A stretch of DNA of 60,357 nt from Gemmatimonadota bacterium (GTDB lineage: Bacteria; Gemmatimonadota; Gemmatimonadetes; Gemmatimonadales; GWC2-71-9). Positions 26,552 to 60,339 of the stretch are shown piece by piece. Positions within the stretch are counted from its first letter, which is position 1; every line of letters starts with the position of its first letter. The position numbers were made by a program, and so were the translations under genes. The stretch covers positions 1 through 60,357 of the forward strand of contig QHUB01000022.1 in the NCBI GenBank assembly GCA_003221035.1. The letters run 5' to 3'. The notes beneath the pieces were generated by a model. It ran no database searches. It was not told the origin of the DNA and was given only the letters and a program-made list of their open reading frames with translations.

Positions 26552-28713
26552 GAGGCGCTGCCTCCACCGGCCACGGCGCCGCCGGATGGGGGAATCGTCG
26601 AATCGGGACTCAGCAGCGGATCTGGAAGGACCGGCACACCGTTGGCAGGTGCGACGACGGGCGCCTCCTGATCCGTGACGGCGGGTGGGCGCCGGGAGAC
26701 CCGTCGCCGCGTCGCACCGTTGCCGTTCGTATGGGGACGAGAGTAGCCGTTGCCGTTGCTGCGGCGTTGTGTCGCAGCGCCGACCAGCTCGAGCCGTTCC
26801 GGCTGGTACTCCGTCACGATCGTCGAGAGCGCGCGCATCATGGCGTGCTCGTCGCCTTCGCCCGTGACCGCGATCAGGGTGCGGAGCTGGCGCGCCAGGA
26901 GCGCGCCGCCGTTGCCGTTGCCGGTGACGACGCGAATCTTCTCGATCGAGGTCTTTGCCAGCGTTTCGTTGGGCGCGACGAGCTCCTCTTCGAGTTTTTC
27001 GCCGGGCCGCAGGCCGGTGAACACGATCTGCACGTCGTGGTACGGCACCAGCCCGGAGAGTCGGATCAGCTGCTCGGCGAGCTCGAGGATGCGGACCTGC
27101 GTGCCCATCTCGAGCACGGCGATCCGGCCCGCGGCCTCGGGCAGCGACGCCGCTTCGAGGACGAGCTGGGACGCTTCCGGAATCGTCATCAGGAACCGCT
27201 TCATCTCCGGATGCGTGACCGTGACCGGCCCGCCCACGGCGATCTGTTTCTTGAACAGCGGCACCACGCTCCCGTCCGAGCCGAGCACGTTGCCGAACCG
27301 CACGACGCGGAAATCGGTCTGGGCGGCGCGCAGCGAGGGCAGCTCAAGCACGATGTGCTCGGCGACCCGCTTGGTGGCGCCGAGGATGCTCATCGGATTG
27401 ACGGCTTTGTCGGTCGAGATGAGGACGAACTTTCCGGTGCCGACACGCGCGGCGGACTGCGCGAGCCGCAGCGTGCCGACCACGTTGTTCCAGACGCCCT
27501 CGATCATGTTGGCCTCGAGCATCGGCACGTGCTTGTAGGCCGCGGCGTGGAAGACGCAGTCGGGGCGATAAGCTTCGAACAGCCGGTCGAGGCGGGCGGC
27601 GTTCGTCACGCTCGCCAGCACCGGCACGACGTCGATGGCGGGATGGGATTCCGAGATCTCGTGAGCGATGAAGAACAGCGGGCTCTCCGCGCGGTCGAGC
27701 AGCAGCAGGCGCCGGGGATTGAAGCGCGCAATCTGCCGGACCAGCTCGGAACCGATGGAGCCGCCCGCGCCGGTGACGAGGATGACCTTCCCGGCGAGCT
27801 CGGGCGCTACATCCTTGAGATCGAGCTGCACCGGCGGCCGGCCCAGCAGGTCTTCGACCTGGACGTCGCGGACCTGGTTGATCTGCGGCTCGTCGGGGGA
27901 CAGCAGGTCGACCTGCGGCGGCAGAATCTTGACCGCGACACCGGTCTCGGCGGCCCGTGCGACGAGCCCGCGCAGCTGCTCGGGGCTCGCGGACGGAATG
28001 GCGATCACGATCTGCTGGGCGTGGTGCATCGCGACAAACCGCCGCAGCTCGTCCGACCCGCCGAGGACCGAGACGCCATGGAGCGTCCGGCCGTGCTTGG
28101 CGACATCGTCATCGACCATGCCGACGACGTTGAGGGGATGCCGCGGGTCGTGCTGGAGCTGCCGCAGCAGCCGTTCGCCGGCGACTCCTGCGCCCACGAT
28201 GATCGCGGGCCGGCCGCGCCGCCGCTGGCGGCGCCGGAACGGCTCTTCCTTGATCCAGCGGAGCAGGCCGCGCTGATCGCGGCTCGGGCGCCGGAACGGC
28301 TCTTCCTTAATCCACCGCGCGACGAACCGAATGCCGCCCGCCACGACGATGGTGATCAGCCAGTCGAGTGCCGGGACCGACCGCGGCACGGTGCCGAAGC
28401 GTCCCGCGAAAACCAGGAGGGTGACGAAGGCCACTGAGCCCAGCGTCGTCGCGGCGACGAGCTGGCGCAGATCACGGACCCCGACGAGATGCCAGTAGCC
28501 GCGAAACAGGCCGAAGCGGTTGAAGAGGAGCAGGCGCAGCGCCAGCAGGTAGGGCAGCGTCCCGGCGTAGTTGCGAAGCTGATCGGGCGGAATACGGAAG
28601 TCGAAGCGCAGCGCGAACGCGGCGAAATAGGCGAACGACACCAGCGCCAGGTGTCCGGCAATCGAGAGGGCGCGCCGCTGCTGGCGCAGACGCGAAAAGA
28701 CGTCTTTCAACAT
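26548..28713 (-). CDS. Membrane UDP-HexNAc 4,6-dehydratase (WbpM/PglF/CapD-like)
   Basis: 721 residues. Four membrane helices (about 15-130) precede a first Rossmann-like domain (AIIVGAGVAGERLLRQL) and the SDR dehydratase domain: VILVTGAGGSIGSELVRQI binds NAD, and HAAAYKHVPMLEANM, ISTDKAVNPMSILGATKRVAE and RFGNVLGSDGSVVPLF are hallmark motifs. It makes UDP-4-keto-6-deoxy-HexNAc at the inner membrane, first step of the amino-sugar route. The linker after the membrane part has a 57-bp in-frame tandem duplication (RWIKEEPFRR twice). A low-complexity C-tail rich in Asn, Gly and Pro is extra. It heads the minus-strand operon. Confidence 0.9.
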   Translation of the reverse strand: MLKDVFSRLRQQRRALSIAGHLALVSFAYFAAFALRFDFRIPPDQLRNYAGTLPYLLALRLLLFNRFGLFRGYWHLVGVRDLRQLVAATTLGSVAFVTLLVFAGRFGTVPRSVPALDWLITIVVAGGIRFVARWIKEEPFRRPSRDQRGLLRWIKEEPFRRRQRRRGRPAIIVGAGVAGERLLRQLQHDPRHPLNVVGMVDDDVAKHGRTLHGVSVLGGSDELRRFVAMHHAQQIVIAIPSASPEQLRGLVARAAETGVAVKILPPQVDLLSPDEPQINQVRDVQVEDLLGRPPVQLDLKDVAPELAGKVILVTGAGGSIGSELVRQIARFNPRRLLLLDRAESPLFFIAHEISESHPAIDVVPVLASVTNAARLDRLFEAYRPDCVFHAAAYKHVPMLEANMIEGVWNNVVGTLRLAQSAARVGTGKFVLISTDKAVNPMSILGATKRVAEHIVLELPSLRAAQTDFRVVRFGNVLGSDGSVVPLFKKQIAVGGPVTVTHPEMKRFLMTIPEASQLVLEAASLPEAAGRIAVLEMGTQVRILELAEQLIRLSGLVPYHDVQIVFTGLRPGEKLEEELVAPNETLAKTSIEKIRVVTGNGNGGALLARQLRTLIAVTGEGDEHAMMRALSTIVTEYQPERLELVGAATQRRSNGNGYSRPHTNGNGATRRRVSRRPPAVTDQEAPVVAPANGVPVLPDPLLSPDSTIPPSGGAVAGGGSAS
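28231..28317 (-). repeat. 57-bp in-frame tandem duplication in the dehydratase gene
   Basis: The 30 bases at 28231-28260 recur at 28288-28317 with two differences, a period of 57 bases or 19 codons. The first 21 bases are identical. Both copies encode RWIKEEPFRR in the linker between the membrane helices and the first Rossmann domain. Confidence 0.8.
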
Positions 28714-45833: not shown

Positions 45834-48800
45834 TCAGTGGCAGTTACCCGACCCGTGGTCGGTGAAGGTGGAGCCTGACGCCGGGATGAAGTCCCAGATA
45901 TAGCTGTCCGGGCCCAGCGTCAGCTTCAAGACACCATACGCGTCGGAGATCGCTTCCGTATTCGGCGCGATGGAGGTCGGCATGCTGGTCGCATAGCCAC
46001 CGGTCCCGGGATTGAACGAGCGAATACCGCGCGCCGGGTCCAGATTGGCGCCCGCGTCTTGTGGCGCAAAGCGCTCGTAGTCGTACTGCTGGCCATTCAG
46101 GACGATCTCTGCATTTGCGTTATACAGATCAATCCAGAATGGCAGGACGCCCGACGCGCTGTGCCATGTCGGATCGTCGGACGAGAAGAAGAGTGGGTAA
46201 TGGAACATGGCGATCGTGCACGGCTTCGTATTCGCCGCGAGATCCGCCTTCAACCACTGCTCTTCGACCGAGCCGGCGCCATTGGCGACCGACGCGGTGT
46301 TGTTGAGCACGATCACGTGCCAATAGGGACCGAGGTCGAAGCTGTAGTAGTACTTCGCCGAGTCGCCCACGGTTGGCTTGAAGTACGTATAGAAGGCGTT
46401 TGCTCCGGCCACGTCGTATTCATGGTTTCCCACGACCGCGCGCGTCCGTGCCTTATGACGTCCCCACGTCGGGGTGTAGCAGTTGGCGTAATTCGCCGCG
46501 CTGCCGCTCGGGTTGACGTTGTCGCCGAGCGCGAACACAGTGCCGGGAAGGCCGTCCAGGATCTGCGCCGTCGCTTCGTCCTCATCCGTGCCGCATGACG
46601 CGATGTTGCTGGCTCCCGAAAAAATCTGCACCGTCGCCGGGTCGAGCACCTTGACGACGAAGTCGTCCGAGCCCACGCCCCCGTCTTTGTCCGTGACCGT
46701 GACTCGCGCGGTGTATCGCCCTGGTGCGGGATACATGTGGCTCGCGCTGATCGGATTCGCCTGGGTATTCGTGCTACCGCCATCGGTCACGCCGTCGCCC
46801 CAGGCGATGGTGTAGGACCACGGATTATCGGTCGTTCCCGGATCGGCAAACGTCGCGAGCAGGTTGAGCGCGGTGCCGCCGACCACTGACTGGTCGGGTC
46901 CGGCGTTCACTGTCGGTGGGACGTTGCTGACGTTCACGTTGGTCGACGCCGGAGTGCTGCTCACACCCTTGGCATCCCGCACCGTCAACGTGACCACGTA
47001 CGATCCGTCGGACGGATAGGTGTGCGTTACCGTCGGCGTGGTGGCAGTCGTTCCGTCGCCCAGGTCCCATGCGTACGTGATGGGCGTGTTGTTGTCTGGA
47101 TCGCGCGACTGGCTGCCATCGAGGACGACGGTGCCCTCGGAGTTATAGGGGCCACCGGGGTTCGCCACCGGCGCCTGGTTCGGCAACGGCGACCCCGAAT
47201 GGCACGACGCGCTTCCTGCGTCGGTAAAGGTCCCGCCCGCCACCGGGATGAACTGCCAGTCGTAGCTCGTGGGCCACAGCGTCAGCTTGATGACTCCGTA
47301 GTTGACGTTGCTCCGGATCTGGCTGTTCGCGATCGGGGGGATATCGAAGCTGTACAGCGAGTTGCCGCCGGTGCCGACGACGAACTCTCTGATGCCGTTG
47401 GTATTGTCGAGAGCCCCGGTCGGAGTCTGCGGCGCAAAGCGCTCGTAATCGTGGTCGTGACCGTTGAGCACCACTTCGGCGCCGAAGTCGTACAACGCCT
47501 GCCAGATCGGTTGCGTCTCGATCGTGCTGCCGTTCCCGCCTGAGCTGAACCGCGGGTGGTGCCAGTAGGCCAGCGTACAGGTCGCCGGGTGCGCCGCCAG
47601 ATCGGCGCGCAGCCATCGCTCCTGCGTCGAGCCCGCGCTCATGTCGAGGCTCGAATTGATGACCACGATGTGCCACGTGCCCAGGGTGTAGCTGTAGTAG
47701 CCGATCCCCGAGTCACCTGCGGCCGCGCCCCAATACGCGTAGTAGCCGGGCGCGCCCGCGGACTGCCCGTGGTTGTATTCGTGGTTGCCGGTCGCCGGGC
47801 GCGTGCGCGCCTTGTGCCGGCCCCACGACGGATCGAAGCAGTTCATATAATCTGCGAGTGACCCGTCTGGGTAGGCGCCGTCACCGAACGTGGCGACCTG
47901 GCCGACGATGCCGTCCAGCACACGCGCCGTCCCTTCCTGGCTCACGCGCGAGCAGTCCGCGATATCACCCGCACCGGCGAGTACCGCCGGACCCGACGAG
48001 GACTGCACCGTCACGGCCGACGTGCCAACGATGCCTTCACTCGTCGCGCTGATCGTAGCCGTGCCTGCGGCTAGTCCCGCGACGAAACCGCTGCCGTTCA
48101 CGGCCGCTATCGACGGCGCACTGCTCCCCCAGGTCACGGTCCGCCCGGTCAGCGCGTTGCCGTTGGCGTCCTTCGGTGTGGCGGTGAGCTGAACCGTTCC
48201 GTTCGCCGGGATTGTGGCCGAACTCGGCGTCACGTTCACAGCGGCGACCGGCGCCTGCGTAACCGAAACAATCGCGCTGCCGCTCTTGCCCTCGCTCGTG
48301 GCCGTGATCGTCGCGGATCCCGCTGCGACTCCGCGCACCAGTCCGCTGCCGTCGACGGTTGCGATGCCTGGCGCGGCACTTTGCCACGTAATCGTGCGGC
48401 CGGACAATGGATTCCCGCTCGCGTCCTTCAGGGTGGCGGTGAGCTGCACGGTTCCGCCGACCGGGATGCTCGGTGCAGTGGGTGTGACTGAGACCGAGGC
48501 CACCGGAATGACCGTCGCGCTGACCGTGATGGCTGACGTGCCGCTCTTGCCGTCGCTCGTTGCGGTGATGGTGACCGGGCCACCCACGGCCGTGCCGGTC
48601 ACGAGACCGTTCGCGTCCACGGTGGCGATGCTCGCGTCAGCTGTCGTCCACGTCACGGCGCGGCCCGTGAGCGCATTGCCGTTAGCGTCCTTCGGGGTTG
48701 CGGTGAGCTGCACAGTGGTATTCACCGCGATCGTTGCCGTCGCCGGCGTCACGTCGACGGAGGCCACGGGAACGAGGTTCACCGTGATCGCCGCTGTGCC

Positions 48801-50225
48801 GCTCTTGCCTTCGCTTGTGGCAGTCACCGTGACCGGGCCGCCGGCGGCTTTGCCGGTGACGAGGCCGTTCGTGTCCACTGTCGCCAGGGTCGTGTCACTC
48901 GTGGTCCACGTGACGACGCGCCCGGTGAGGGGATTGCCGTTCGCGTCTTTCGGACTGGCGGTGAGCTGAATGGTGGCGCCGACTTGAATCGTGGCCGTTG
49001 CCGGGCTGACATCAACCGTCGCAACAGGGATGGCGTTCACGGTTACCGCGGAGCTCCCGCTCTTCCCCTCGCTCGTCGCGGTCATGGTGACCGGACCGCC
49101 CGCGGCGTTGCCCGTGACGAGTCCGTTCGCATCTACCGTTGCGATGGTCGCGTTGCTCGTCGTCCATGTCACGGTTCGTCCGGTGAGCGGATTGCCGGCT
49201 GCGTCTTTCGGCGTTGCGGTGAGCTGGAGCGTTGTGCCCGTGGAAATACTGGCTGTGGTGGGGCTCACGTCGACCGAAGCGACGGCGATTCTGGTGTGGC
49301 ACGCGGTGGACCCGGTATCGGTGAATGTCGCACCAGGGACGTGGACGAACTCCCACGCGTAGCTCGCCGTGTCGAGTACGAACTTCAGCACGCCGTAGGT
49401 CGTGCCGTTCCGCACCTGGCTGTTCGGGCGCGCAACCCCCGGATTCTGCAGATTCAGGCCGCCGGTGCCGACGATGAACTCGCGGATGCCGAGCGGATCG
49501 GCGACAGCGGTCGGCGATTGCGAGGCGAACCGTTCGTAGACGGTCGCGTTCGCGTTCACGACGACGTCGGCGTTGTACGCGTAAAGCGCGTCCCACAGCG
49601 GCTTGACGGCCGCCAGGTTATTGGTGCCGGTTGAGCTAAACCGGGGGCGATGCCAGTAGGCGAGCGTGCACTTCTTCGTGTTCGCCGCCAGCTCGGCGCG
49701 CAGCCACAGCTCCTGAGGAGATCCAGCGGTCATGGTGATTTGGTCGTTCAGCACCATGATGTGCCACGCGCCAAGGTCGTAGCTGTAGTAGTACTTCCCG
49801 ACGTCTCCACCCGCGGCGCCGAAGTACTGATTGAAGCCCGCCGCGTTCGCCGTCTTGTAGTCGTTATTTCCCACCGCGGGCCGTGTGCGCGCCTTGTTTC
49901 GCCCCCAGGATGGCCCGTAGCAGTTGTTGAAGTTTGTGAGCGTCGCGTTCCCGTTGGTGTTGTCGCCGGCCGTAAACACCGTCGCGCCCGGGTAGTTGTC
50001 GAGCAGCAGCCCGGTTGCCTCGTCGTTGGTGCGGTCACACCGCGCGATGTCGCCGGCGCCAATGAGCAGTGCCGGAGCTCCAGGCGTGATGTCCGCAGCG
50101 ATGGGAGGACGGGGGGCTGCCGGCGAGGACGTAAACGTAGGCCCAGCGTTGTCGCTGCACGTCGTGAGGAGCAGCAGGGCAAGAGCCCGAGCAGCGTAAG
50201 CGACGCGGTGAGATCGCGATCCCAT
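45834..50225 (-). CDS. Giant secreted protein: three metallophosphoesterase, five BIG2 and two PKD domains
   Basis: 1463 residues. A signal peptide ends in LLLTTC (possible lipid Cys23). Order: MPE1 (52-310), five bacterial Ig-like BIG2 repeats (313-741), MPE2 (747-1009), PKD1 (1017-1100), PKD2 (1102-1195), MPE3 (1199-1463). MPE2 keeps all motifs (GAGDIADC, GDGAYPDG, GNHEY, WHHPRF, NGHDHDYERF). MPE1 has lost the GNH His (GNNDY) and GHxH (NANATVYERF). MPE3 has lost the first Asp (GASNIASC) and GHxH (NGQQYDYERF). All three end in a T(F)TDxGSxxCH signature. The likely state is an elongated cell-surface protein with one active phosphatase and two binding relatives. Confidence 0.85.
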   Translation of the reverse strand: MGSRSHRVAYAARALALLLLTTCSDNAGPTFTSSPAAPRPPIAADITPGAPALLIGAGDIARCDRTNDEATGLLLDNYPGATVFTAGDNTNGNATLTNFNNCYGPSWGRNKARTRPAVGNNDYKTANAAGFNQYFGAAGGDVGKYYYSYDLGAWHIMVLNDQITMTAGSPQELWLRAELAANTKKCTLAYWHRPRFSSTGTNNLAAVKPLWDALYAYNADVVVNANATVYERFASQSPTAVADPLGIREFIVGTGGLNLQNPGVARPNSQVRNGTTYGVLKFVLDTASYAWEFVHVPGATFTDTGSTACHTRIAVASVDVSPTTASISTGTTLQLTATPKDAAGNPLTGRTVTWTTSNATIATVDANGLVTGNAAGGPVTMTATSEGKSGSSAVTVNAIPVATVDVSPATATIQVGATIQLTASPKDANGNPLTGRVVTWTTSDTTLATVDTNGLVTGKAAGGPVTVTATSEGKSGTAAITVNLVPVASVDVTPATATIAVNTTVQLTATPKDANGNALTGRAVTWTTADASIATVDANGLVTGTAVGGPVTITATSDGKSGTSAITVSATVIPVASVSVTPTAPSIPVGGTVQLTATLKDASGNPLSGRTITWQSAAPGIATVDGSGLVRGVAAGSATITATSEGKSGSAIVSVTQAPVAAVNVTPSSATIPANGTVQLTATPKDANGNALTGRTVTWGSSAPSIAAVNGSGFVAGLAAGTATISATSEGIVGTSAVTVQSSSGPAVLAGAGDIADCSRVSQEGTARVLDGIVGQVATFGDGAYPDGSLADYMNCFDPSWGRHKARTRPATGNHEYNHGQSAGAPGYYAYWGAAAGDSGIGYYSYTLGTWHIVVINSSLDMSAGSTQERWLRADLAAHPATCTLAYWHHPRFSSGGNGSTIETQPIWQALYDFGAEVVLNGHDHDYERFAPQTPTGALDNTNGIREFVVGTGGNSLYSFDIPPIANSQIRSNVNYGVIKLTLWPTSYDWQFIPVAGGTFTDAGSASCHSGSPLPNQAPVANPGGPYNSEGTVVLDGSQSRDPDNNTPITYAWDLGDGTTATTPTVTHTYPSDGSYVVTLTVRDAKGVSSTPASTNVNVSNVPPTVNAGPDQSVVGGTALNLLATFADPGTTDNPWSYTIAWGDGVTDGGSTNTQANPISASHMYPAPGRYTARVTVTDKDGGVGSDDFVVKVLDPATVQIFSGASNIASCGTDEDEATAQILDGLPGTVFALGDNVNPSGSAANYANCYTPTWGRHKARTRAVVGNHEYDVAGANAFYTYFKPTVGDSAKYYYSFDLGPYWHVIVLNNTASVANGAGSVEEQWLKADLAANTKPCTIAMFHYPLFFSSDDPTWHSASGVLPFWIDLYNANAEIVLNGQQYDYERFAPQDAGANLDPARGIRSFNPGTGGYATSMPTSIAPNTEAISDAYGVLKLTLGPDSYIWDFIPASGSTFTDHGSGNCH
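48003..49289 (-). repeat. Five tandem BIG2 Ig-domain repeats
   Basis: Five units of about 255 bases encode 85-87-residue Ig-like domains with the pattern VxSVxVxPxxAxI, LTATPKDANGNxLTGR, VTW, IATVDxxGLV and TATSEGKSG. DNA similarity between units is high, so unit number may vary between strains by recombination. Confidence 0.85.
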
Positions 50226-50434: not shown

Positions 50435-52522
50435 TTACTGCCGCGTACTCGTGATGACGAATACTCCGAAGTCCGGTCCAGTCTGCGGGGGCGGGGTGGG
50501 CGAACCCCCGATAGGCGCGACGGGAGTCACGCCCGCCATCGGCACATCCACAGGGCCGCCCGTGTAGGTGCCGCTCAACACCGGCGCTCCAAAGAAGTCC
50601 TGCACGTTGCGGACCTCGTAGCGATCTCCCATCCGCACGATTCCGCTCAGATCTACCGGCACGGTGCCCTGGCGAGTCCAGTTATAAATGATCAGGTTCG
50701 CCCGCCCGGGCTCGTAACGGTTGGGTCGCAAGAACACCTTCGGCTCAGCCGGGTCGTTGGTCACGACGCGGTCGGTCGCGCCCACTCCGCTCACCCGCTG
50801 CCAGTCGGCGAAACCATAGTCGGTGTTGATGTAGCCCCACGCGTCCGCACTCGGGTCGCGGTAGTAGCGGTTGTTGGCCAGCTGGAACCCCGAGACCGTG
50901 GAGTCCCGCAGCCAGATCATGTCGCTGATCGAGCCGAACAGTGAGTTGTCCGTCAGCGTGAGCGACTGCCACCAGCCCACATCGAGCAACAGCATGCCTC
51001 CCACGGCGTAGTTGTTCCGTACCGTGAGATCCTGGTTGAGCGTCGTGCCGAACCCGATCAGCAGGTTGTGTACGCCGACGTTAGGCGAGAAGTACGTCAT
51101 GTTGTCGACGAGCGTGCCGTTCTGGACCGGCTTGCTGCCGCCGAACAGGATGTTCGCGCTCGGAGAGTTCACCGGGTCGGCATCCACCGCGCCGTTGTTG
51201 AACGAGACATTGCCCTCGGCGTGAATGTTGGTGAGGCCGTCAGGCCCCGCGATCGTGAAGATGTGGATGCCGTAGCCGAACTGGTTGAAGAGGATGTTGT
51301 CGCGCAGGGACACGGGGCCGGTCGTGCTCTTCGCATAGATACCGTGTCCGTTGCCGAACACCGGCTCCTGCCAACCGTTGTTGTAGGCGAGACAACCGTA
51401 GATCTCGATGTCCACCGGTTCGGAGAAGGTATAGAACCCGATCCCGCCGTCATGCACGGTCAGGTTGATGAGTTTTACATGGGACGCGTTGACGACGATC
51501 ATGTTCGGACGTGTGTCCGTGGACCGATTCGGGTCCGAGTCCATGACCTCGAAGCCCCAGAGGGTCGAGTAGTTTCCGGCCACGGTGAGAAAATCACCGC
51601 GACCGGTGGAGGAAGTCGCTCCCCTCGCGTCGAGGACGGCCCGCTCTCCCGGATACTGCCGCACCACGACGGGCGCGGACGACGTGCCGGCGAGCGTACT
51701 GGTGATCGGACTGGCGCTCGTGTAGGTGCCACCGCGCAGCCAGACCGTGTCGCCGGGCTGGACGCTCCCGTTCCCCCCGTGCAGCGCCGTTTGGAGGTCC
51801 CACGGCCGGCCTGAGCCGTCTCCGGTGCTCGAACCCGCGGGCGCCGCGAACCATCCCAGGACGGCGACGGCGGCGGGGCCGGCGGTCCCGCCATAGGTCG
51901 CCACGACGGTGGTTCGCCCAGGGCGGATCGCCGTGACGCGCGCTGTCTGTGGACCGGTACTCACCACACTGGCAGCGCGAGGGCTGAGGGCGCCCCACAC
52001 TACCTGTCCCGTCACCGGAGTGCCGTTGGCGTCGAGAATCGTGGCTGTCAGGGTGAGGGTGTCGCCGATCAACAGCGAGTCGGCCGCCGGCGTGACGATC
52101 ACGGCAAAGCTTCCCAATGTCACCTCGATCGGCACGTCGCCCGTGAGCGGCGTCAGCACGATCGCGATCGTCGGATTCGCACCGGGTTGCAGGCTGACCG
52201 TGACGGACCCGCTGTGCGTTTCGACGCCACCTGCATCATAGGCGCGGATGGCGATGGACCGATTCGACCCGGCCGGGAGGTCGATCGTGCCTGACGCGAC
52301 GCCGGCCGCAATGGGGATATTGAAAATCAATGTCGTGGCAATATCCGGCGCGGTGACTTCCGCAACCAGGGTTGCGACCGCCGAAGCGGACACGTCGGCT
52401 CTGAGCAGGAGCCGGGCCTCGAAAGGCCGAGGCCCACCGTCCGTGGGTTCGCGCGAGCAGGACGCGAGCCCGAGCGTGGAAATCAGGACGAGTCCCCGCC
52501 AGAGTGGTCTGGTGCGGAGCAC
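50435..52522 (-). CDS. Ig-like plus right-handed beta-helix surface lipoprotein
   Basis: 695 residues. Signal peptide with lipobox GLASC. Residues about 35-135 are a domain shared almost unchanged with the neighbour at 52533-53183 (RADVSASAVATLVAEVTAPDI), then a BIG2-like domain (about 135-220), then a beta-helix (about 240-560) with DGGIGFYTF, LRDNILFNQFGYGIHIF and NGTLVDNMTYF turns, and finally the LIIYNW domain found also at 2-667 and 17340-19163. It probably binds or modifies polysaccharide outside the cell. The GTG at 52522 gives the best signal peptide and lies 10 bases after the neighbour's stop; a TTG at 52588 is the longer alternative. Confidence 0.78.
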   Translation of the reverse strand: MLRTRPLWRGLVLISTLGLASCSREPTDGGPRPFEARLLLRADVSASAVATLVAEVTAPDIATTLIFNIPIAAGVASGTIDLPAGSNRSIAIRAYDAGGVETHSGSVTVSLQPGANPTIAIVLTPLTGDVPIEVTLGSFAVIVTPAADSLLIGDTLTLTATILDANGTPVTGQVVWGALSPRAASVVSTGPQTARVTAIRPGRTTVVATYGGTAGPAAVAVLGWFAAPAGSSTGDGSGRPWDLQTALHGGNGSVQPGDTVWLRGGTYTSASPITSTLAGTSSAPVVVRQYPGERAVLDARGATSSTGRGDFLTVAGNYSTLWGFEVMDSDPNRSTDTRPNMIVVNASHVKLINLTVHDGGIGFYTFSEPVDIEIYGCLAYNNGWQEPVFGNGHGIYAKSTTGPVSLRDNILFNQFGYGIHIFTIAGPDGLTNIHAEGNVSFNNGAVDADPVNSPSANILFGGSKPVQNGTLVDNMTYFSPNVGVHNLLIGFGTTLNQDLTVRNNYAVGGMLLLDVGWWQSLTLTDNSLFGSISDMIWLRDSTVSGFQLANNRYYRDPSADAWGYINTDYGFADWQRVSGVGATDRVVTNDPAEPKVFLRPNRYEPGRANLIIYNWTRQGTVPVDLSGIVRMGDRYEVRNVQDFFGAPVLSGTYTGGPVDVPMAGVTPVAPIGGSPTPPPQTGPDFGVFVITSTRQ

Positions 52523-52532
52523 GCGCTCGTGA

Positions 52533-53183
52533 TTACGGTGTGATGCCGACAGTCGCGGTCCCAGTCGCCCCGTGGTATGTCGCGGCAATCTTCGTAGAGC
52601 CTACGCCCACACCAGTCGCGAGTCCGGTGGCATCCACGGTGGCGATGCTCGGGTCGAGCGTGGCCCACGCGATGGTGCCCGTCGTCGGATTCCCATTCCA
52701 GTCGGTGATCGTCGCTGCGAACTGCACAGTTCCGCCCTTCGCCACGGTGGGCGAAGCGGGCGTCACGGTGATGGTGAAGCTTCCCAGCGTCACTACGATC
52801 GGCTGGTCACCCGTGAGCGGCGTCAAGGTAATAGCGACCGCCGTGTTCGCTCCGGCCTGAATCGTGAACGTCGCGGAGCCGCTGTGTGTCAGCGTCCCAC
52901 CGGCGTCGTAGGCTCGCAGAGTCACGGTCCGATCCGAGCCCGCGGGGATGGTGATCGTGCCGGCCGCGACCCCGCCCGAGATGGGGATATTGAAAATCAG
53001 CGGGGTTGGAATATCCGGGGCGGTGATTTCGGCGACCAAGGTCGCGACCGCCGAAGCGGAGACATCGGCGCGAACGGTCAGCCTCCCTTGCCCCCGACCC
53101 GGATCGACCGAGCCAGTGCAGGCCACAAGGAGCGAGACCGCTACGAGCCCGAAGTTTCGGAATCTCAACGGGGTCCAAATCAT
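52533..53183 (-). CDS. Ig-like lipoprotein, paralogue of the neighbour's N-terminus
   Basis: 216 residues. Lipobox SLLVAC (Cys22). The first domain (RADVSASAVATLVAEITAPD to LTPLTGDQPIVVTLGSF) is nearly identical to that of the protein at 50435-52522, also at DNA level. A BIG2-like domain follows (GTVQFAATITDWNGNPTTG, IATVDATGLATG). It has no beta-helix, so it is either a stand-alone partner or a copy that lost its helix. The ATG at 53183 has AGGAGG upstream; the open frame to 53300 adds no signal peptide. Confidence 0.75.
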   Translation of the reverse strand: MIWTPLRFRNFGLVAVSLLVACTGSVDPGRGQGRLTVRADVSASAVATLVAEITAPDIPTPLIFNIPISGGVAAGTITIPAGSDRTVTLRAYDAGGTLTHSGSATFTIQAGANTAVAITLTPLTGDQPIVVTLGSFTITVTPASPTVAKGGTVQFAATITDWNGNPTTGTIAWATLDPSIATVDATGLATGVGVGSTKIAATYHGATGTATVGITP

Positions 53184-53442
53184 GGAGAAAGCGCCTCCTG
53201 GCGCGACAAAGGTGAGATCGACAATCTCACGTTCTGTGCCCGCGAGGCCGTGCACGCCCCAAGCGCGCCTGACCGCCTGCCTGACAGCCATTCGACACAC
53301 ATTCGAGTCAGGTTGGTTTCAATTCATGAGGGGCCTAACTCACCATGTGGCTCCACAGGTACAGCTAACCAGCGGTGCCGTGCGATAAGTCACTTCCCCC
53401 CTAAAAGGATGTTTGCATACTAGCCTGCCGTTGATTGGCAGG
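53184..53442. promoter_or_regulatory. Divergent region upstream of the tandem riboswitch
   Basis: About 260 bases between the minus-strand lipoprotein and the first riboswitch aptamer, with no gene seen. Promoters for both directions should lie here. TTGCATACT (53413-53421) is a weak -10-like site for the riboswitch transcript. A hairpin, CCTGCC (53424-53429) with GGCAGG (53437-53442), directly precedes the aptamer. Confidence 0.4.
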
Positions 53443-53535
53443 CAGCACCGCTGCTCAGAGCAAAACCGCCGAAAGGCGGTGACGCAGAGCTAAGGGGACT
53501 TCGGCGACAAGGGTCGCCATGTCAGCCCGGCCGCC
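53443..53535 (+). promoter_or_regulatory. c-di-GMP-I (GEMM) riboswitch, first aptamer
   Basis: Matches the GEMM-I pattern: CAGAGCAAAACC, then a P2 stem ACCGCC/GGCGGT closed by a GAAA tetraloop (53465-53480), then GACGCAGAGCTAAGGGG, a P3 stem GGCGAC/GTCGCC (53503-53518), and the 3' strand ATGTCAGCCCGGCCGCC. The usual GGC/GCC pair is AGC/GCT here, a compensated change. Its last bases GGCCGCC are also the left arm of the terminator at 53529, so ligand binding should alter transcription read-through. Confidence 0.85.
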
Positions 53536-53579
53536 AGCGACTCGAGACGTCTTCGAGTTACTTGGCGGCCTTTCTATTT
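53529..53579 (+). terminator. Intrinsic terminator overlapping the first aptamer
   Basis: GGCCGCCA (53529-53536) pairs with TGGCGGCC (53563-53570). A second stem, CTCGA/TCGAG (53541-53557), stacks inside. TTTCTATTT follows at once. The left arm is the 3' strand of aptamer 1, the classic layout of a transcriptional riboswitch. Confidence 0.85.
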
Positions 53580-53606
53580 ACGGCAGGATCGCATCCCCCC
53601 AGGGGA

Positions 53607-53695
53607 GCGCGACAAAGGCAAACCCGGCGAAAGCCGGGGACGCAAAGCTACGAGGCTACCGCACGCCGTTCGCGTGCCATGCCAGTCGGGCCGCC
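53607..53695 (+). promoter_or_regulatory. c-di-GMP-I (GEMM) riboswitch, second aptamer
   Basis: A near-consensus GEMM-I aptamer: GCGCGACAAAGGCAAA, P2 stem CCCGGC-GAAA-GCCGGG (53623-53638), GGACGCAAAGCTACG, P3 stem GCACGC/GCGTGC (53661-53677), and CATGCCAGTCGGGCCGCC. It ends 24 bases before the ATG at 53720. A small CCTC/GAGG hairpin (53699-53711) covers part of the Shine-Dalgarno GAGGGG, so this copy probably controls translation. Confidence 0.9.
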
Positions 53696-53719
53696 GAACC
53701 TCTTCATGAGGGGTGTTTC

Positions 53720-55930
53720 ATGCGTTCTCGTACGACGTTGCCCTGCATACTGACGCTGCTCGCGGCGGTCGCGGCCTGCGACCTGCGAGCGCGGTCGGGC
53801 ATTGGCGCGGACGACACCGTGACACAGCTGGTTGTCTCTCCCGACAGCACGATGCTCGATCCTTCGCAAAGCTACCAGTTTCGCGTCTATGGCCGCACCG
53901 AAGTCGGCGACAGTGTGCCGGTGTCGGTCCGCTGGGCCGCTTCGGCGGGCATCATCACATCCGCCGGCTTGTACACGGCCGACACATCGGCGGCCGACGT
54001 GGTCGTGACAGCGACTCTTATCAACTCCACGGTCAGCGGGTCATCGAGGGTAAAGAAGCGCCGTGTGATCGCGATCTTCATCAGCCCCAAGAGCGTCACG
54101 GTGCCCGCGGGCGGTAGCCAGCAATTCGCCGTCTACGGCCGTCGCAACAGCGGTGACAGTGTGAATGTCTCCGTCACTTATGCGGCGACGGGCGGTACGG
54201 TCTCGGGAAGTGGCGCATATACGGCCGGGCAGAGCGCAGGGAGATACCGCGTCATTGCCGACCAGAGGGGAGGATCGCTGGCGGACACCTCCGCCGTTAC
54301 CATTACCACGATGCCACCACCGCCTCCGCCTCCGCCTCCTGTGCCGGTCGTCTCAGTGACCGTGAGCCCGGCATCGACCGGCCTCGTCGTCGGCCAGACC
54401 GCGCAGCTGTCGGTCACGACCAAAGACTCCGCCGGCAACGTGCTGATCGGGCGGACGATCACGTGGGGGAGCAGCAGCACGTCCGTTGCGACCGTGAGCG
54501 CTAGCGGCCTGGTCGCGGCAAAGGCGGCGGGTTCGGCAACGGTGACCGCGACGAGCGAAGGGAAGAGCGGGACGGCGGCGGTCACGGTGACCGTTGCCCC
54601 GGTAGCCTCGGTGACCGTGACTCCCGCCCCGGCGAGCGTGACCGCGGGGCAGACCGTGCAGCTGACGGCGACGCCGAAGGACGCCGGCGGCAACGCGCTG
54701 CCCGGGCGGGTCGTGACGTGGGCAACGAGTAACGCCGCGGTGGTCACCGTATCGACCGGCGGGCTCGTCAGCGGGCTCGTGGTGGGCACGGCGACGATCA
54801 CCGCGACGAGCGAGGGGCAGAGCGGCAGCTCCGCCGTCACGGTTACGGTGCCCGCAGCGGGCTGCGCTGCCGCGTGCCGCTACGTGGCAGTGACCGGCAA
54901 CGACGCGAACGCGGGGACGAAGACCGCGCCCTGGCGTACGATTCAGCATGCCGCCGACGTCATGAATCCCGGCGACACCGTCATCGTGAATGATGGCGTC
55001 TACACCGGCGGTGCCAACGTTGTGACCATCACGCGCAGCGGCACCGCGACCGCGTGGTTCGTGTTCCGTGCCGCCAATCGCTGGGGCGCGATCATCGACG
55101 GGCAAAACAACAGCTCGACCACCGGGTTCGAGATCAACGGGAACTACATCCGCGTGGAGGGCTTCGAGGTGCGCAACACCAGCCGCTACGCAATGGAGAC
55201 CTACGGCGGCCGGGAAGATATCGCCGGGAACCACGACGTCACCCTGGTCCAGAATCATCTTCACGACGTCGGGCACATCTGCACCGGCTCCACCGGCGGC
55301 ATCGTCGGCGTGTCCGCCTACTCGGACAACCTGGTCATCGAGCGAAACGTGATCCACGATATCGGCCGGCTCGGGCCGGGCGAGCAGGGCTGCGTCGAGC
55401 CGAACGCCAACTGGCAGAATCACGATCACGGCATCTACAACGGCGTGGGTAACAACGTCGTGATTCGCAACAACGTCTTCTACAACTTCACCCATGGCTG
55501 GGCGATCCAGCGCTACAATGGCGCGGGCTCCGTCACCACCGGGCTGACGATCGTGAACAATACGTTCGGCTTCCCGAACCCGTGGCGCGACGCCCAGATC
55601 ATCATCGCGACCCCGACCAACAACGTGGTGATCGCGAATAATTTGTTCTACCAACCCACGACGGCCGGGGTGTGGTTCGACGGATCCAACGGCGGAACGC
55701 TGGTGGGCAACGTGTCCACGAATTCGATCCAGACCGGCGGCTCAGGCCTGACGATGAGCGGCAACATGACGAACACCGATCCGCTCTTCATGAACGCGAC
55801 GGGGTTCGACTTCCACTTGACCGCCGGCAGTCCGGCGCGCGGGTTGGGGGCGGCGGCATGGTGCCCGTCCGTCGACTTCGACGGCGTGGCGCGGTCGGGG
55901 GCCTGCAGCGCGGGAGCGTACCAGAACTAA
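53720..55930 (+). CDS. Riboswitch-controlled Ig-domain and beta-helix surface lipoprotein
   Basis: 736 residues. Lipobox AVAAC (Cys20). Two Ig-like domains (about 35-205) are followed by a run of nine prolines, two BIG2 domains (about 215-375) and a right-handed beta-helix (about 380-736) that begins RYVAVTGNDANAGTKTAPW. The helix is closely related to the next protein (56037-57218). The ATG at 53720 has GAGGGG 6 bases upstream; the frame is open back to 53519 but that part is the riboswitch. Expression should follow c-di-GMP. The likely place is the cell surface, with polymer binding or cleavage as the role. Confidence 0.85.
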   Translation: MRSRTTLPCILTLLAAVAACDLRARSGIGADDTVTQLVVSPDSTMLDPSQSYQFRVYGRTEVGDSVPVSVRWAASAGIITSAGLYTADTSAADVVVTATLINSTVSGSSRVKKRRVIAIFISPKSVTVPAGGSQQFAVYGRRNSGDSVNVSVTYAATGGTVSGSGAYTAGQSAGRYRVIADQRGGSLADTSAVTITTMPPPPPPPPPVPVVSVTVSPASTGLVVGQTAQLSVTTKDSAGNVLIGRTITWGSSSTSVATVSASGLVAAKAAGSATVTATSEGKSGTAAVTVTVAPVASVTVTPAPASVTAGQTVQLTATPKDAGGNALPGRVVTWATSNAAVVTVSTGGLVSGLVVGTATITATSEGQSGSSAVTVTVPAAGCAAACRYVAVTGNDANAGTKTAPWRTIQHAADVMNPGDTVIVNDGVYTGGANVVTITRSGTATAWFVFRAANRWGAIIDGQNNSSTTGFEINGNYIRVEGFEVRNTSRYAMETYGGREDIAGNHDVTLVQNHLHDVGHICTGSTGGIVGVSAYSDNLVIERNVIHDIGRLGPGEQGCVEPNANWQNHDHGIYNGVGNNVVIRNNVFYNFTHGWAIQRYNGAGSVTTGLTIVNNTFGFPNPWRDAQIIIATPTNNVVIANNLFYQPTTAGVWFDGSNGGTLVGNVSTNSIQTGGSGLTMSGNMTNTDPLFMNATGFDFHLTAGSPARGLGAAAWCPSVDFDGVARSGACSAGAYQN

Positions 55931-56020: not shown

Positions 56021-56036
56021 GTCACTTCTCGCCCCC

Positions 56037-57218
56037 ATGCGGTCCACCAGGTTCTTCACGGCGCTCCTCGTGAGCACCCCGCTCGTGACTTGTGGATGTG
56101 AGGTGAGCGCCGGTGGCTTCGGGCCGCCGCTGCTCCCGACGCCGCCACCGGCGGGGTGCGGGAATACCGGATCCGGCGTGTGCTATCACGTGGCCACCAC
56201 CGGGAACGACTCGGACCCGGGGACCGCCGCCCAACCGTTCCGCACCATCCAGCATGCAGCTGACATCGTGAACCCCGGTGACGGGGTGCTGGTCGAGAAT
56301 GGCACGTACACCGGCGGCTCAACCGTCGTCTACATCAACCGCAGCGGGACCGCCGCGAACCGGATCGTGTTCCGTGCCCAGAACCGCTGGCAGGCGGTCA
56401 TCGACGGCCAGAACAACAGCTCGACCATCGGCATCGCGATTCCGGGCGGGTTCGTCTGGGTCGAGGGGTTCGAGGTCCGGAACACGGGCCGCTACGGGAT
56501 CGACACGGATGTCGGGCACGACCAGGTGGTCATCGGCAACAACGTGCACGACATCGGCCGCGCCTGCACCAGCGGCACCGGCGGGATCGTCGGCATCGAT
56601 GCCTATGCGTCGGGTCTGGTGATCGCGGGCAACTGGATCCACGACGTGGGGCGTTTCTCGCCGGGTGAGAACGGGTGTGTCCAACCCAACAACAACTGGC
56701 AGAATCACGACCACGGGATCTATAACGGCATCGGGACGAGCGTGATGATCGTGAACAACGTGTTCTACAACCTCACGCATGGTTGGGCGATCCAGCGCTA
56801 CGACGGCGGCGGGGCGGTGGTGGAGGGTTTATTCATCCTGAACAACACCTTCATCGGCGCCAACCCGAACCGCGACGGGCAAATCATCATCGCGACTCCG
56901 ACCTCGAACCTGGTGATCGCGAACAACATTTTCTACCAGCCCGCGAACGCGGGAGTGCTTTTCGAGAACGCCGGAAGTGGCGGAACGCTCGCCGGCAACG
57001 TCGCGACGGGGGAGCTCCAGACGGGCGGCTCGGGCCTCGTGCTAAGCGGCAATCTTTCGAATACCGATCCGCTGTTTGTGAACGCGGGAGGCTTCGACTT
57101 CCATCTCACCGCCTCGAGTGTCGCGCGGAACGCAGGCATCGCGCGGTGGTGCCCGCCCACGGACTACGACGGCGTGGCGCGATCTGCGTCCGGGTGCAGT
57201 GCCGGCGCGTTCCACTGA
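56037..57218 (+). CDS. Right-handed beta-helix surface protein
   Basis: 393 residues. The signal sequence has two possible lipid Cys (LVTCGC). After a Pro-rich spacer comes one beta-helix domain (about 50-393), starting CYHVATTGNDSDPGTAAQP, with FRTIQHAADIVNPGDGVLVENG, IDGQNNSSTIG, QNHDHGIYNGIGTSV and NNIFYQPANAGVLF. It is a tandem paralogue of the helix at 53720-55930 but lacks the Ig domains and the riboswitch. The ATG has no clear Shine-Dalgarno. Related proteins bind or cleave pectin- or alginate-like polymers; no catalytic residues can be assigned safely. Confidence 0.8.
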   Translation: MRSTRFFTALLVSTPLVTCGCEVSAGGFGPPLLPTPPPAGCGNTGSGVCYHVATTGNDSDPGTAAQPFRTIQHAADIVNPGDGVLVENGTYTGGSTVVYINRSGTAANRIVFRAQNRWQAVIDGQNNSSTIGIAIPGGFVWVEGFEVRNTGRYGIDTDVGHDQVVIGNNVHDIGRACTSGTGGIVGIDAYASGLVIAGNWIHDVGRFSPGENGCVQPNNNWQNHDHGIYNGIGTSVMIVNNVFYNLTHGWAIQRYDGGGAVVEGLFILNNTFIGANPNRDGQIIIATPTSNLVIANNIFYQPANAGVLFENAGSGGTLAGNVATGELQTGGSGLVLSGNLSNTDPLFVNAGGFDFHLTASSVARNAGIARWCPPTDYDGVARSASGCSAGAFH

Positions 57219-57228
57219 GGCGGAGTCC

Positions 57229-59220
57229 TCACCGCAGGTCGAACGCGCGCATCCACATCTCCAGGGCGAGGATGCGGAACAGACCGAGGTAGGCCTCCTC
57301 CGAAGCTCCTGTGGCCTCGGGCGAGGCATACCAGCGGCGCAACGCCGCGACGTCCACGAACCGCTCGCAGCGCATTGAATCCCCGATCAACGCCGTCACC
57401 TGCGGCCGGAGGTCGTGTGCCAGCCAGCGGCGATCGGGCGCCGCGAAGCCGAGCTTGCTGGTGCGCTCCCGAACGGCGTCGGGGAGCACGCCCCGCATCA
57501 CTTCGCGGATCGCGAATTTGCTCCAGCCGTTGTGCACCTTCAGGTGGTCGGGCAGCGAAATCCCGTAATCGACGAGCTCGTGATCGAGGAGCGGCACACG
57601 CGCTTCGAGCGAGAACGCCATGGACGAGCGATCTTCCATGCGCAGCAGCAACGGCAGCGTATCCGTCATGATGTCGTCCACCTGGATGCGCTGCATCACG
57701 CTCATCTCTGTGTGGCCTGACCCGCCGGCTCTGGCGTACCGCCACCACCGCGTTGCGGGCGTGCTCTCGCCGCCCAGCGCGCGGTCCCAGTCCGTTCGAA
57801 GCACGCCCTCGAGCAGCGAATCAACGCCGAGCAGGCGACGCAGGCGCGTCGGCAGGTAGCGATACCCGCGGCGCAGGTTGAGCACGTAATTGAGGTCGCC
57901 CTGACCCATCATCGCTCCGGCCTCGAGCGCGAAGCGGACCAGGCGTCCGGAGCGCAGCAACGAGGCGAGAGAGGCATAGCGAAACTTCGCGTAGCCGCCG
58001 AAGACTTCGTCGCCCCCCTGACCATCCAACAAGACTTTGACGCCGGCGTCGCGCGCGGCCCGCATGACGGACCACTGCGCGTAGTAGCTGATTGAGGCGA
58101 ACGGCATGTCCTGGTGCCAGGCCATCAGCGGGAACGTTTCCCAGAAGTCCTCCGCCGAGGGGAACACGAGGTGGGATTCGGCGCCGGCCGAGCGCGCCAC
58201 AGCGTCGGCGTACGTCCGCTCGTCGAGCTCCGGGTACTTCCAGCACGATGTGAAAGTGAGAAAGCGGTCCCCGAGCGCCGTGGCCTGATCGGGCTGCTCG
58301 CGCCAGAGTTTGCCGATCAGCGAGACAACCGTCGAGGAGTCGATCCCGCCGCTGAGGCAACTGCCCGCGCGAACGTCGCTCATGAGGTGGGATTGCATGG
58401 TGCTCGTCAGAAGCGTCCGCAGCCCGTCGAGCCGTACGCTGTCGCGGATGCCGTTGGCATGCTCCGGCAGGAGCTGCCAGTACTGCCGGACGTCGACCCG
58501 GCCGGTCGAGGCGTGCACCGTGAGGCAGTACCCTGGGGGCAGCGCTTTCACCTCTCGGAGCAGCGTCCGTTCGCCGTAGTCGCAGTTCGCATGGATGAGG
58601 AAGCCGACCACGGCGTCGTCGTCGGTGGCAGTGTCGAGGCCGGGGCACACGAGCAGGGACTTCATCTCCGACGCGAACGCGAACGTCCCTGCCGGCGTCG
58701 CGTAGTAGAACGGCTTGATGCCCAGGCGATCGCGCGCGGCAAACAGGCAGCGGCGGGCGCCGTCCCAGATGGCGAAGGCATACATCCCCTGGAGCCGCTC
58801 GAGGCAGTCCTCGCCCCATTCCCGGTACGCCTGCAGCAGCACCTCGGTGTCGGTGCGCGTCCCGAACGTGTAGCCGCGTCCCTCCAGCTCGGTGCGCAGC
58901 TCGCGGTGATTGTAGATCTCGCCGTTGAACACGATCCAGCATTTCCCGTCGCCGGTCGGCATTGGCTGGAGACCGCGGTCGGAGAGATCGAGGATCGCGA
59001 GGCGGCGGTGGCCGAGCGCCAGGCGGACCGGGGCGCGGCCGCCTTCCCACTGCCGGGTATGCTGCACCAACTTGTGTGTGAACCCGCCCTCGCCCTCCCA
59101 GCCGAGCAGGAAGCCTTCGCCGTCCGGCCCGCGGTGGGCCTGCCGGTCAGTCATGCGCTGCAGGACTGCGGGGTCGATCGGAGCCCCCTGCAGACTCACG
59201 AGGCCGGTTATCCCACACAT
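57229..59220 (-). CDS. asnB: Asparagine synthetase (glutamine-hydrolysing), second copy
   Basis: 663 residues. MCGITGLVSLQG gives the glutaminase Cys2, with RLAILDLSDRG and FNGEIYNHREL. The synthetase half has CLSGGIDSSTVV (about residue 290) and DGQGGDEVFGGYAKF. It is a different subtype from the enzyme at 8698-10620, not a recent copy. Such genes often sit with FemAB-like and glycosyltransferase genes in exopolysaccharide loci, and here the FemAB-like gene lies 30 bases upstream. GGAAGGG precedes the start. It ends 10 bases from the convergent beta-helix gene. Confidence 0.87.
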   Translation of the reverse strand: MCGITGLVSLQGAPIDPAVLQRMTDRQAHRGPDGEGFLLGWEGEGGFTHKLVQHTRQWEGGRAPVRLALGHRRLAILDLSDRGLQPMPTGDGKCWIVFNGEIYNHRELRTELEGRGYTFGTRTDTEVLLQAYREWGEDCLERLQGMYAFAIWDGARRCLFAARDRLGIKPFYYATPAGTFAFASEMKSLLVCPGLDTATDDDAVVGFLIHANCDYGERTLLREVKALPPGYCLTVHASTGRVDVRQYWQLLPEHANGIRDSVRLDGLRTLLTSTMQSHLMSDVRAGSCLSGGIDSSTVVSLIGKLWREQPDQATALGDRFLTFTSCWKYPELDERTYADAVARSAGAESHLVFPSAEDFWETFPLMAWHQDMPFASISYYAQWSVMRAARDAGVKVLLDGQGGDEVFGGYAKFRYASLASLLRSGRLVRFALEAGAMMGQGDLNYVLNLRRGYRYLPTRLRRLLGVDSLLEGVLRTDWDRALGGESTPATRWWRYARAGGSGHTEMSVMQRIQVDDIMTDTLPLLLRMEDRSSMAFSLEARVPLLDHELVDYGISLPDHLKVHNGWSKFAIREVMRGVLPDAVRERTSKLGFAAPDRRWLAHDLRPQVTALIGDSMRCERFVDVAALRRWYASPEATGASEEAYLGLFRILALEMWMRAFDLR

Positions 59221-59250
59221 GCTAGTTTGCCCTTCCGTTGCGTTGGGTGA

Positions 59251-60339
59251 TCATGCCGGGCTGTCCGCGCGCTCGGCTTCGTCGGCGAGGCGGCCCCAGC
59301 GGAACATGCGAATGCGCGCGATGCGCCCGCGCACGGATTGCTGCCAGCGGTAGCCGCGCTCCGCGAAGTCGCGCGCGCGAGCGAGCCAGCGGTAGCGGCT
59401 GCGGACCCAGCGGTATTTCGTGACGTCGAGCTCGGCCCCGAACTTGGCCTTGAAGTCCCCGAGCCCCATGAAGTCGAAGGTCTCGCAACCCGCGGCCATC
59501 GCTCGTGTCATCACTGTCCACGTAAGCAGCTCGGTCGGACGGAACCAGCGATGCGCCGTTCGGTGGGCCCATGACCACAGCAGCAGCTCGCGGCCGTCGA
59601 CTGTGAACAATCCCGTGGCGATGTTCACGTTCTCCGGCGTATAGATGGAAACCGCCAGCAGTTTGCCGGCCGCGCGCATGTGGCGGAAGAATTCGCGCGC
59701 GCGCGTCGAACCAAACGACACCGTGTTCCCCCCGCGCACGAACACTTCCTCGAGCTGCGCGTAGTGCTCGGCTGCGAAGGCCTCGTCGTCCTCGAACCGA
59801 GCCACGAGGCCGAGCTTCGCGGCGCGACGAATGTTGCGCCGCGCGCTCTCTTTGAGCGTCTTCATCATCCGCGCTTCGTCACCGGGGTAGAGTCGGGCGC
59901 GGTAAGTGGGCACCGCTTCACCGCGAAACCCGAGGACGTGCATCGCCGCGGCGTCGAGATCGCCGCTCAGCAGTTCGACATGATGAACGCGATGGCGGCG
60001 CTCGAGGTACGGCACCAGGACGCCGATCAGGTCGGCGCTCGACACCCGCGCGGGATCGAAGACCGGTCCCATGGCGGGGGTCTGCCAGCCGGGCAAGGGC
60101 GAGCCGTACAGCCGGAGCAGGCCGAGCCGAACGAGCAAGCCGGGAATTGCCGCGACGATTTCCCCGGCCTGCTCGAACACCAGATAAAGCGGCGTGCCGC
60201 AGCCGCACGCTTCCAGCCACTCGATCCACGCTCGCTTGTGGACGATGCGGCAGTTGGGGAAGCGAGCGACCAGCTGGTCCCATTCGCCCCGCTCGGCCGG
60301 CGTCGCCGCGCGGACGGTCACCATGTCGGCTTGCGGCAT
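59251..60339 (-). CDS. FemAB-like acyltransferase
   Basis: 362 residues with two GNAT-like halves. RFPNCRIVHKRAWIEWLEACG opens the protein; SARRNIRRAAKLGLVARFEDDEAF and FIT-like WSWAHRTAHRWFRPTELLTW follow, then DFMGLGDFKAKFGAE. It aligns with the first half of the FemAB/ATP-grasp fusion at 20795-23065 and lacks the ligase. Members of this group transfer acyl or aminoacyl groups, often in exopolysaccharide or exosortase systems. The ATG at 60339 has GAGG 4 bases upstream; ATG at 60324 is the alternative. Confidence 0.78.
   Translation of the reverse strand: MPQADMVTVRAATPAERGEWDQLVARFPNCRIVHKRAWIEWLEACGCGTPLYLVFEQAGEIVAAIPGLLVRLGLLRLYGSPLPGWQTPAMGPVFDPARVSSADLIGVLVPYLERRHRVHHVELLSGDLDAAAMHVLGFRGEAVPTYRARLYPGDEARMMKTLKESARRNIRRAAKLGLVARFEDDEAFAAEHYAQLEEVFVRGGNTVSFGSTRAREFFRHMRAAGKLLAVSIYTPENVNIATGLFTVDGRELLLWSWAHRTAHRWFRPTELLTWTVMTRAMAAGCETFDFMGLGDFKAKFGAELDVTKYRWVRSRYRWLARARDFAERGYRWQQSVRGRIARIRMFRWGRLADEAERADSPA

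Follow-up and report, generated by a model that had tools for sequence, protein, structure and literature searches.

Tandem GEMM-I aptamers with different selectivity bases, a candidate cGAMP and c-di-GMP gate upstream of a surface lipoprotein gene in Gemmatimonadota

Two riboswitch aptamers of the same fold precede the gene of a surface protein in a soil bacterium of the phylum Gemmatimonadota, which raises the question of whether this leader reads one second messenger twice or two different messengers. When the whole window (the entire stretch of DNA analysed, 60,357 nucleotides) was searched with cmscan against Rfam at the gathering thresholds, exactly two matches were returned, both in the leader at 53449–53699 of the forward strand. 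The first aptamer (53449–53538) matched the c-di-GMP-I model RF01051 with 56.7 bits (cut-off 35). The second (53608–53699), separated from the first by a spacer of 69 nt, had its best E-value with the c-di-GMP-I-GGC model RF03167 (67.7 bits; cut-off 59) but a higher bit score with the ordinary RF01051 model (75.6 bits; cut-off 35). Because the genome (3.36 Mb, 98.7% complete) contains only five GEMM-I matches, a pair lying 69 nt apart is not a product of chance. The search confirmed that two complete GEMM-I aptamers precede the surface-protein gene, at the distance of approximately 70 bases that had been proposed in the initial annotation.

The two aptamers differ at the base that decides ligand selectivity. 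Positions in both aptamers are given in the numbering of the Vc2 structure. The match between this numbering and the positions of the cGAMP aptamer was checked against PMC6274999. At the selectivity position (G20 in Vc2), the first aptamer has an A (53459) and the second has a G (53617), whereas both keep A47 and C92 (53486 and, for the equivalent of C92, 53534 in the first; 53644 and 53694 in the second). The first aptamer also has G at position 48 (53487), and its P1 helix is formed by CGCUG (53449–53453) and CAGCG (53535–53539). It therefore lacks the G at position 20 that characterizes the c-di-GMP subtype and has, as far as the sequence goes, the bases of the GEMM-Ib (cGAMP) type, namely A20 with A47 and C92 retained. 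The second aptamer has the G20, A47, and C92 of the c-di-GMP subtype. That it might be a true GGC variant was ruled out by the A at position 47, where it reads GACGCA and the RF03167 consensus reads GACGCG, G47 being what we take, from our own reading of the model consensus, to be the hallmark of RF03167. Because this hallmark is absent, the label "c-di-GMP-I-GGC" is misleading here, and on its pocket bases and its higher score with the ordinary model we treat the second aptamer as a canonical c-di-GMP-I aptamer. The importance of position 20 is evident from earlier work, in which an A20G change turned a Geobacter metallireducens cGAMP riboswitch into a c-di-GMP riboswitch (PMC6456294), and a Desulfobacca homologue bearing A gained affinity for c-AMP-GMP (PMC9481103). 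An A at the Vc2-G20 position is the signature of 3′,3′-cGAMP (GEMM-Ib) riboswitches, and the first aptamer carries this signature, suggesting cGAMP as its ligand.

In terms of expression platforms, that of the first aptamer is clear. An intrinsic terminator (53529–53579, forward strand) was identified by folding, with a long, G+C-rich stem at 53529–53570 (GGCCGCCAGCGACTCGAG...CTTGGCGGCC; approximately −27 kcal/mol), followed by a T-rich tail at 53571–53579 (TTTCTATTT). A simple terminator scan did not list this structure, which falls outside the limits that the scan sets for stem and loop. The 5′ arm of the terminator (GGCCGCCAGCG...) is the 3′ strand of the first aptamer, including the C92 equivalent (53534) and the 3′ strand of P1, so the aptamer and the terminator are mutually exclusive, and the shared strand that had been noted at the outset is borne out by both the folding and the overlap. 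The predicted minimum of the full-length leader was the terminator form (−77.2 kcal/mol, vs −71.0 kcal/mol with the aptamer enforced), so that the first aptamer would have to be stabilised by a ligand. The same strand sharing, together with a T-rich tail, was found with a strict script test in 51 of 101 A20 aptamers, and in many of the remainder the complementary arm is present but the tail is weaker. In the pilM cGAMP riboswitch of Geobacter, the terminator and the aptamer likewise compete for the C that pairs with the ligand, and the switch is ON (PMC9262584).

Downstream of the second aptamer, no terminator was found; instead, ACCUC, GAGGGG, and an ATG follow. The anti-Shine–Dalgarno (anti-SD) strand ACCUC (53698–53702) faces the SD sequence GAGGGG (53708–53713), and this segment (53698–53713, forward strand) is presumed to be a translational platform. 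The SD, which lies approximately 9 nt beyond the end of the aptamer and upstream of the ATG at 53720, was mostly paired in the predicted ensemble, with a mean accessibility of 0.03, in agreement with the initial description of a partly hidden SD just after the aptamer. ACCUC is conserved in 10 of the 11 mixed tandems described below, and a paralogous leader with only a G20 aptamer, located elsewhere in the same genome before a partly homologous gene, also has the arrangement ACCUC...GGAGGGG. A C-rich/G-rich segment immediately before the second aptamer (TCCCCCCAGGGGAG; 53594–53607, forward strand) can pair either locally or with the anti-SD/SD region, judging from folding and from the alignment of the tandems, and folding showed that a second, upstream C-rich strand can also cover the SD. 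In the predicted folds, the SD was largely helical with or without the second aptamer enforced, and no clear ligand-dependent change was seen, which leaves translational control by the second aptamer plausible but weakly supported. Folding gave no direction for this control, the SD being covered by ACCUC or by the C-rich strand whichever state was assumed.

The controlled gene (53720–55930, forward strand) encodes a probable lipoprotein of 736 amino acids, in which Pfam identified two Big_2 stretches and a beta-helix region, and the N-terminus of which resembles, by eye, a lipoprotein signal (..AVAAC). The next gene on the same strand (56031–57218) encodes a second beta-helix protein (Pfam Beta_helix/DUF1565) and may possibly be co-transcribed with it. 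The divergent neighbours on the reverse strand (45834–50225, 50435–52588, and 52533–53300) encode surface-type proteins with Big_2, beta-helix, or metallophosphoesterase matches, and the region around the leader is an island of genes for surface-type proteins. Polysaccharide-type loci occur in the window at 57229–60339, 4418–10620, and 25370–28713 (reverse strand), with asparagine-synthase-like, FemAB/GNAT, glycosyltransferase, Wzy_C, and Polysacc_synt_2 genes, and Glycos_transf_1 and DegT are among the other polysaccharide-type Pfam matches in the window. The Pfam results thus agree with the original picture of an Ig/beta-helix surface lipoprotein accompanied by polysaccharide-type genes, the latter being located elsewhere in the window. 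On another contig of the same genome (C9, 7526–7601, reverse strand), a compact GEMM-I aptamer that carries G20 and A47 (RF03167, 67.2 bits) lies ahead of what resembles, by eye, a glycerate kinase gene (MSPVVLVAPAAFKGTLG...), a target that is unusual for such aptamers.

The order of an A20 aptamer followed by a G20 aptamer is not confined to this leader. Tandems of the Gemmatimonadota type, with core starts 155–185 nt apart, were found at ten further loci, three of them in one genome (G035) and one each in G156, G110, G282, G232, L248, L251, and L218, the last of which is labelled Armatimonadetes, yet has a leader of the Gemmatimonadota type. All eleven tandems precede genes of Ig-like surface lipoprotein-like proteins, those downstream of the other tandems being homologous to the 736-amino-acid protein, and the second aptamer is conserved at all eleven loci. 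In the regions around the A20 matches, no tandem had the G-then-A order, and three arrays consisted of A20 aptamers only. In genome G002, A20 aptamers occur upstream of one lipoprotein gene in arrays of two and of three (L097 and L099), with a spacing of approximately 157–159 nt. A scan of the whole collection, which covered the A-then-G order only, also detected such tandems in Anaerolineales/Chloroflexi, Acetobacterium, Monoglobus, Faecalibacterium, and others, and the A20 aptamers of these tandems in other phyla keep A48. These GEMM-I tandems (L211–L252; Chloroflexi, Firmicutes, and others) occur in phyla without a recognised Hypr enzyme.

When the A20 core was searched as a pattern, 56 of the 395 genomes of the phylum matched, whereas the reversed control pattern gave one match; approximately 100 A20 matches were retrieved for closer analysis. 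Since the retrieval relied on this pattern, neither A20 nor the fixed core bases count as independent evidence, whereas P1, position 73, and C92 lie outside the pattern. The A20 aptamers of the phylum have the combination G19-A20-A47-G48 in 103 of 108 cases, whereas the G20 aptamers have A48 in 38 of 39, and these are the independent counts for position 48, the alignment of 101 A20 aptamers having taken in G48 cores only. Among the 101 aligned aptamers, A47 was kept in 100 and C92 in all, and P1 showed compensatory changes, the outer pair being C-G in 73 and U-A in 11, and the next pair G-C in 94, A-U in five, and C-G in one. The counterpart of Vc2 position 48 in the crystallised cGAMP aptamer is A42, with which P3 begins; the range of P3 ends at U73 (PMC6274999). 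The partner of G48 at the base of P3 was C in 101 of 101 aligned A20 aptamers, and G48 therefore looks like the result of an A-U to G-C swap, with the pocket itself unchanged; a role for G48 as a new ligand contact is disfavoured for the same reason. Judged by these alignments, the A20 aptamers in Gemmatimonadota are a distinct conserved subclass, not scattered mutants. Taken as a whole, the A20 aptamers are mostly followed by genes of Ig-like lipoproteins; most of the single ones precede genes of probable secreted lipoproteins, and a few precede other genes, such as PilZ-like sequences identified by eye.

A source of cGAMP may be present in the same genome. Its GGDEF proteins include one MASE1-GGDEF protein with the motifs GHLSGS and ARFGGDEF, in which Ser replaces Asp at the base-recognition position (GHLSGS aligning with the GD of canonical enzymes) and the signature motif is GGDEF, with Asp, rather than GGEEF. 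The cross-dimer position is not Arg but His, and it is Tyr in GacA and in most of the Gemmatimonadota relatives. These relatives (NYR..GHLVGS..GGDEF) are the same as GacA of Geobacter metallireducens (PDB 6d9m) at three Hypr signature positions, and GacA grouped with Ser- and Asn-type sequences in a short-domain tree (support 0.84). The enzyme found here has the Ser at the base-recognition position and the GGDEF in common with GacA, but differs in its MASE1 membrane sensor and in the His at the cross-dimer position. It carries the signature of a Hypr cGAMP cyclase, and its product is probably cGAMP, although the His in place of Tyr counts against this. Another family of GGDEF proteins has Asn at the selectivity position (GHEAGN..GGDEF) and is represented by a member on contig C69 of this genome and by L283–L293; it groups with the Ser-type Hypr clade in the tree and does not track the A20 aptamers.

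The Hypr motif, searched as a DNA pattern, was found in 33 of the 395 genomes, including all eight of the genus of the window. Within the family of the window, it was present in 23 of 28 genomes with A20 aptamers vs four of 53 without (Fisher's exact test, p = 1.3e-11, a value inflated by shared ancestry), and when counted by genus, in seven of 11 vs three of 23 (p = 0.005). One match to the A20 pattern, in genome G106, was excluded for want of complementarity in its stem. Outside the family, GGDEF proteins with GHxxG[S/T] were absent from all 27 A20-bearing genomes under both strict and loose DNA patterns, the only matches to the loose pattern being unlike GGDEF coding sequences, and outside the lineage, the motif was absent from 27 of 28 mixed-tandem genomes, the exception being deltaproteobacterial (L215). 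A20 is thus found where no Hypr enzyme can be recognised, and it is not in itself proof of cGAMP: in A20 genomes outside the family, either cGAMP is the product of a different enzyme or such aptamers are able to respond to c-di-GMP. GGDEF proteins of the GHxxGN type are not supported as the alternative cyclase of these genomes, from which that motif is absent; within the family, it occurs in members both with and without A20 aptamers.

Taken together, we consider it fairly probable that the leader is a mixed-ligand tandem riboswitch, in which cGAMP prevents termination and c-di-GMP sets translation. The first aptamer would sense 3′,3′-cGAMP made by the MASE1-GGDEF Hypr-type cyclase of the cell; with cGAMP bound, P1 and C92 would be held in the aptamer, the overlapping terminator would be blocked, and transcription would continue (ON). 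The second aptamer would sense c-di-GMP, rearrange the helices around the SD, and so set the translation of the same mRNA. The output of lipoprotein would then depend on both messengers, as an AND gate if the second aptamer is an ON switch, or as "cGAMP AND NOT c-di-GMP" if it is an OFF switch. The wider proposition, that this gate of termination followed by translation belongs to an unrecognised Hypr-cGAMP regulon of Ig-like lipoproteins in Gemmatimonadota, is one toward which we lean only slightly.

The initial annotation had proposed that a single ligand controls both transcription and translation and thereby gives a sharper response. Two levels of control are in keeping with the clear terminator of the first aptamer and the plausible ribosome-binding-site (RBS)-type platform of the second, whereas a single ligand is not supported, given A20 (53459) in one aptamer and G20 (53617) in the other. 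Because this difference is conserved at ten further loci and a Hypr-type GGDEF protein is encoded in the genome, a two-signal device is likelier than a steeper one-signal switch. A tandem in which both aptamers bind c-di-GMP, the first more weakly because of its A20, so that transcription and translation respond in stages or more sharply, is still conceivable, if rather unlikely. Position 20 has been described as a selectivity factor and not a hard filter (PMC9262584), some A20-type aptamers, such as that of Desulfobacca, still bind c-di-GMP (PMC9481103), the riboswitch of the omcST operon was reported to be sensitive to both ligands (PMC6456294), and same-ligand c-di-GMP-I doublets are the commonest tandem, with 347 doublets (PMC9481103). 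The mixed A20/G20 tandems of Chloroflexi and Firmicutes genomes without the Hypr motif point in the same direction, but in Gemmatimonadota the A20 aptamers form a separate conserved subclass and track the Hypr-type cyclase within the family, both of which speak against a single ligand.

It is improbable that the first aptamer senses some other ligand, such as c-di-AMP or a different mixed dinucleotide, through a variant A20/G48 pocket. Its G19-A20-G48 combination does differ from the A20/A48 aptamers of other phyla, and A20 is widespread where the Hypr motif is missing; however, the C that faces G48 in P3 in all cases is expected of a structural swap rather than of a new contact, A47 and C92 are conserved, and a Hypr-type enzyme is present in the same genome. 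That the first aptamer is the sole working switch and the second a duplicated relic is very improbable. The predicted folds, in which the SD stays mostly paired whether or not the aptamer is constrained, might suggest it, but the second aptamer outscores the first (75.6 vs 56.7 bits), is conserved at all eleven loci, and has a single G20 counterpart at another site in the genome, where the same ACCUC...GGAGGGG leader precedes a gene of partial homology.

Among known systems, the GEMM-Ib riboswitches of Geobacter (e.g., pgcA and pilM) resemble the first aptamer in their GEMM-I fold, the A at the selectivity position, the competition between terminator and aptamer for the C92-equivalent strand, the surface or extracellular targets, and the Hypr GGDEF protein in the genome. 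The leader described here differs from them in its phylum, in the G48-C pair at the base of P3, in the presence of a second, G20 aptamer, and in its targets, which are Ig-like lipoproteins rather than cytochromes or pili. Tandem c-di-GMP-I riboswitches, of which 347 doublets and 12 triplets (PMC9481103) and a triple tandem (PMC4759541) have been described, also have complete GEMM-I aptamers side by side in one leader, but here the selectivity bases differ, and the platforms appear to differ as well (terminator vs RBS). The AdoCbl/c-AMP-GMP gate of Desulfobacca acetoxidans (PMC9481103) is similar in pairing aptamers that independently recognise different ligands, one aptamer being of the cGAMP type. 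Bi-mechanism tandems, such as SAM-II/SAM-V and its relatives (PMC9481103), likewise place two levels of control in one leader, although they sense one ligand, whereas we infer two here. The 2022 review of tandem riboswitches does not include the c-di-GMP/cGAMP pair in its table of two-input gates (PMC9481103); an earlier mention in Geobacter is possible, and priority is not certain. Our literature search returned no papers linking Gemmatimonadetes with c-di-GMP riboswitches or with Hypr GGDEF proteins.

An Rfam label, whether c-di-GMP-I or c-di-GMP-I-GGC, does not by itself capture the base on which the choice of ligand depends, and the A-then-G tandems of phyla without Hypr enzymes raise the testable question of which ligand A20 serves there. 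Most descriptions of cGAMP riboswitches and Hypr signalling come from Geobacter and related bacteria. Should the ligands prove to be those proposed, a whole family in another phylum would control its surface lipoproteins by cGAMP, and some of its genes would integrate cGAMP and c-di-GMP on one mRNA. Because the two messengers serve different attached lifestyles in Geobacter (PMC6456294), an RNA responsive to both would illustrate how signals that are almost identical can be kept apart or brought together within a cell.
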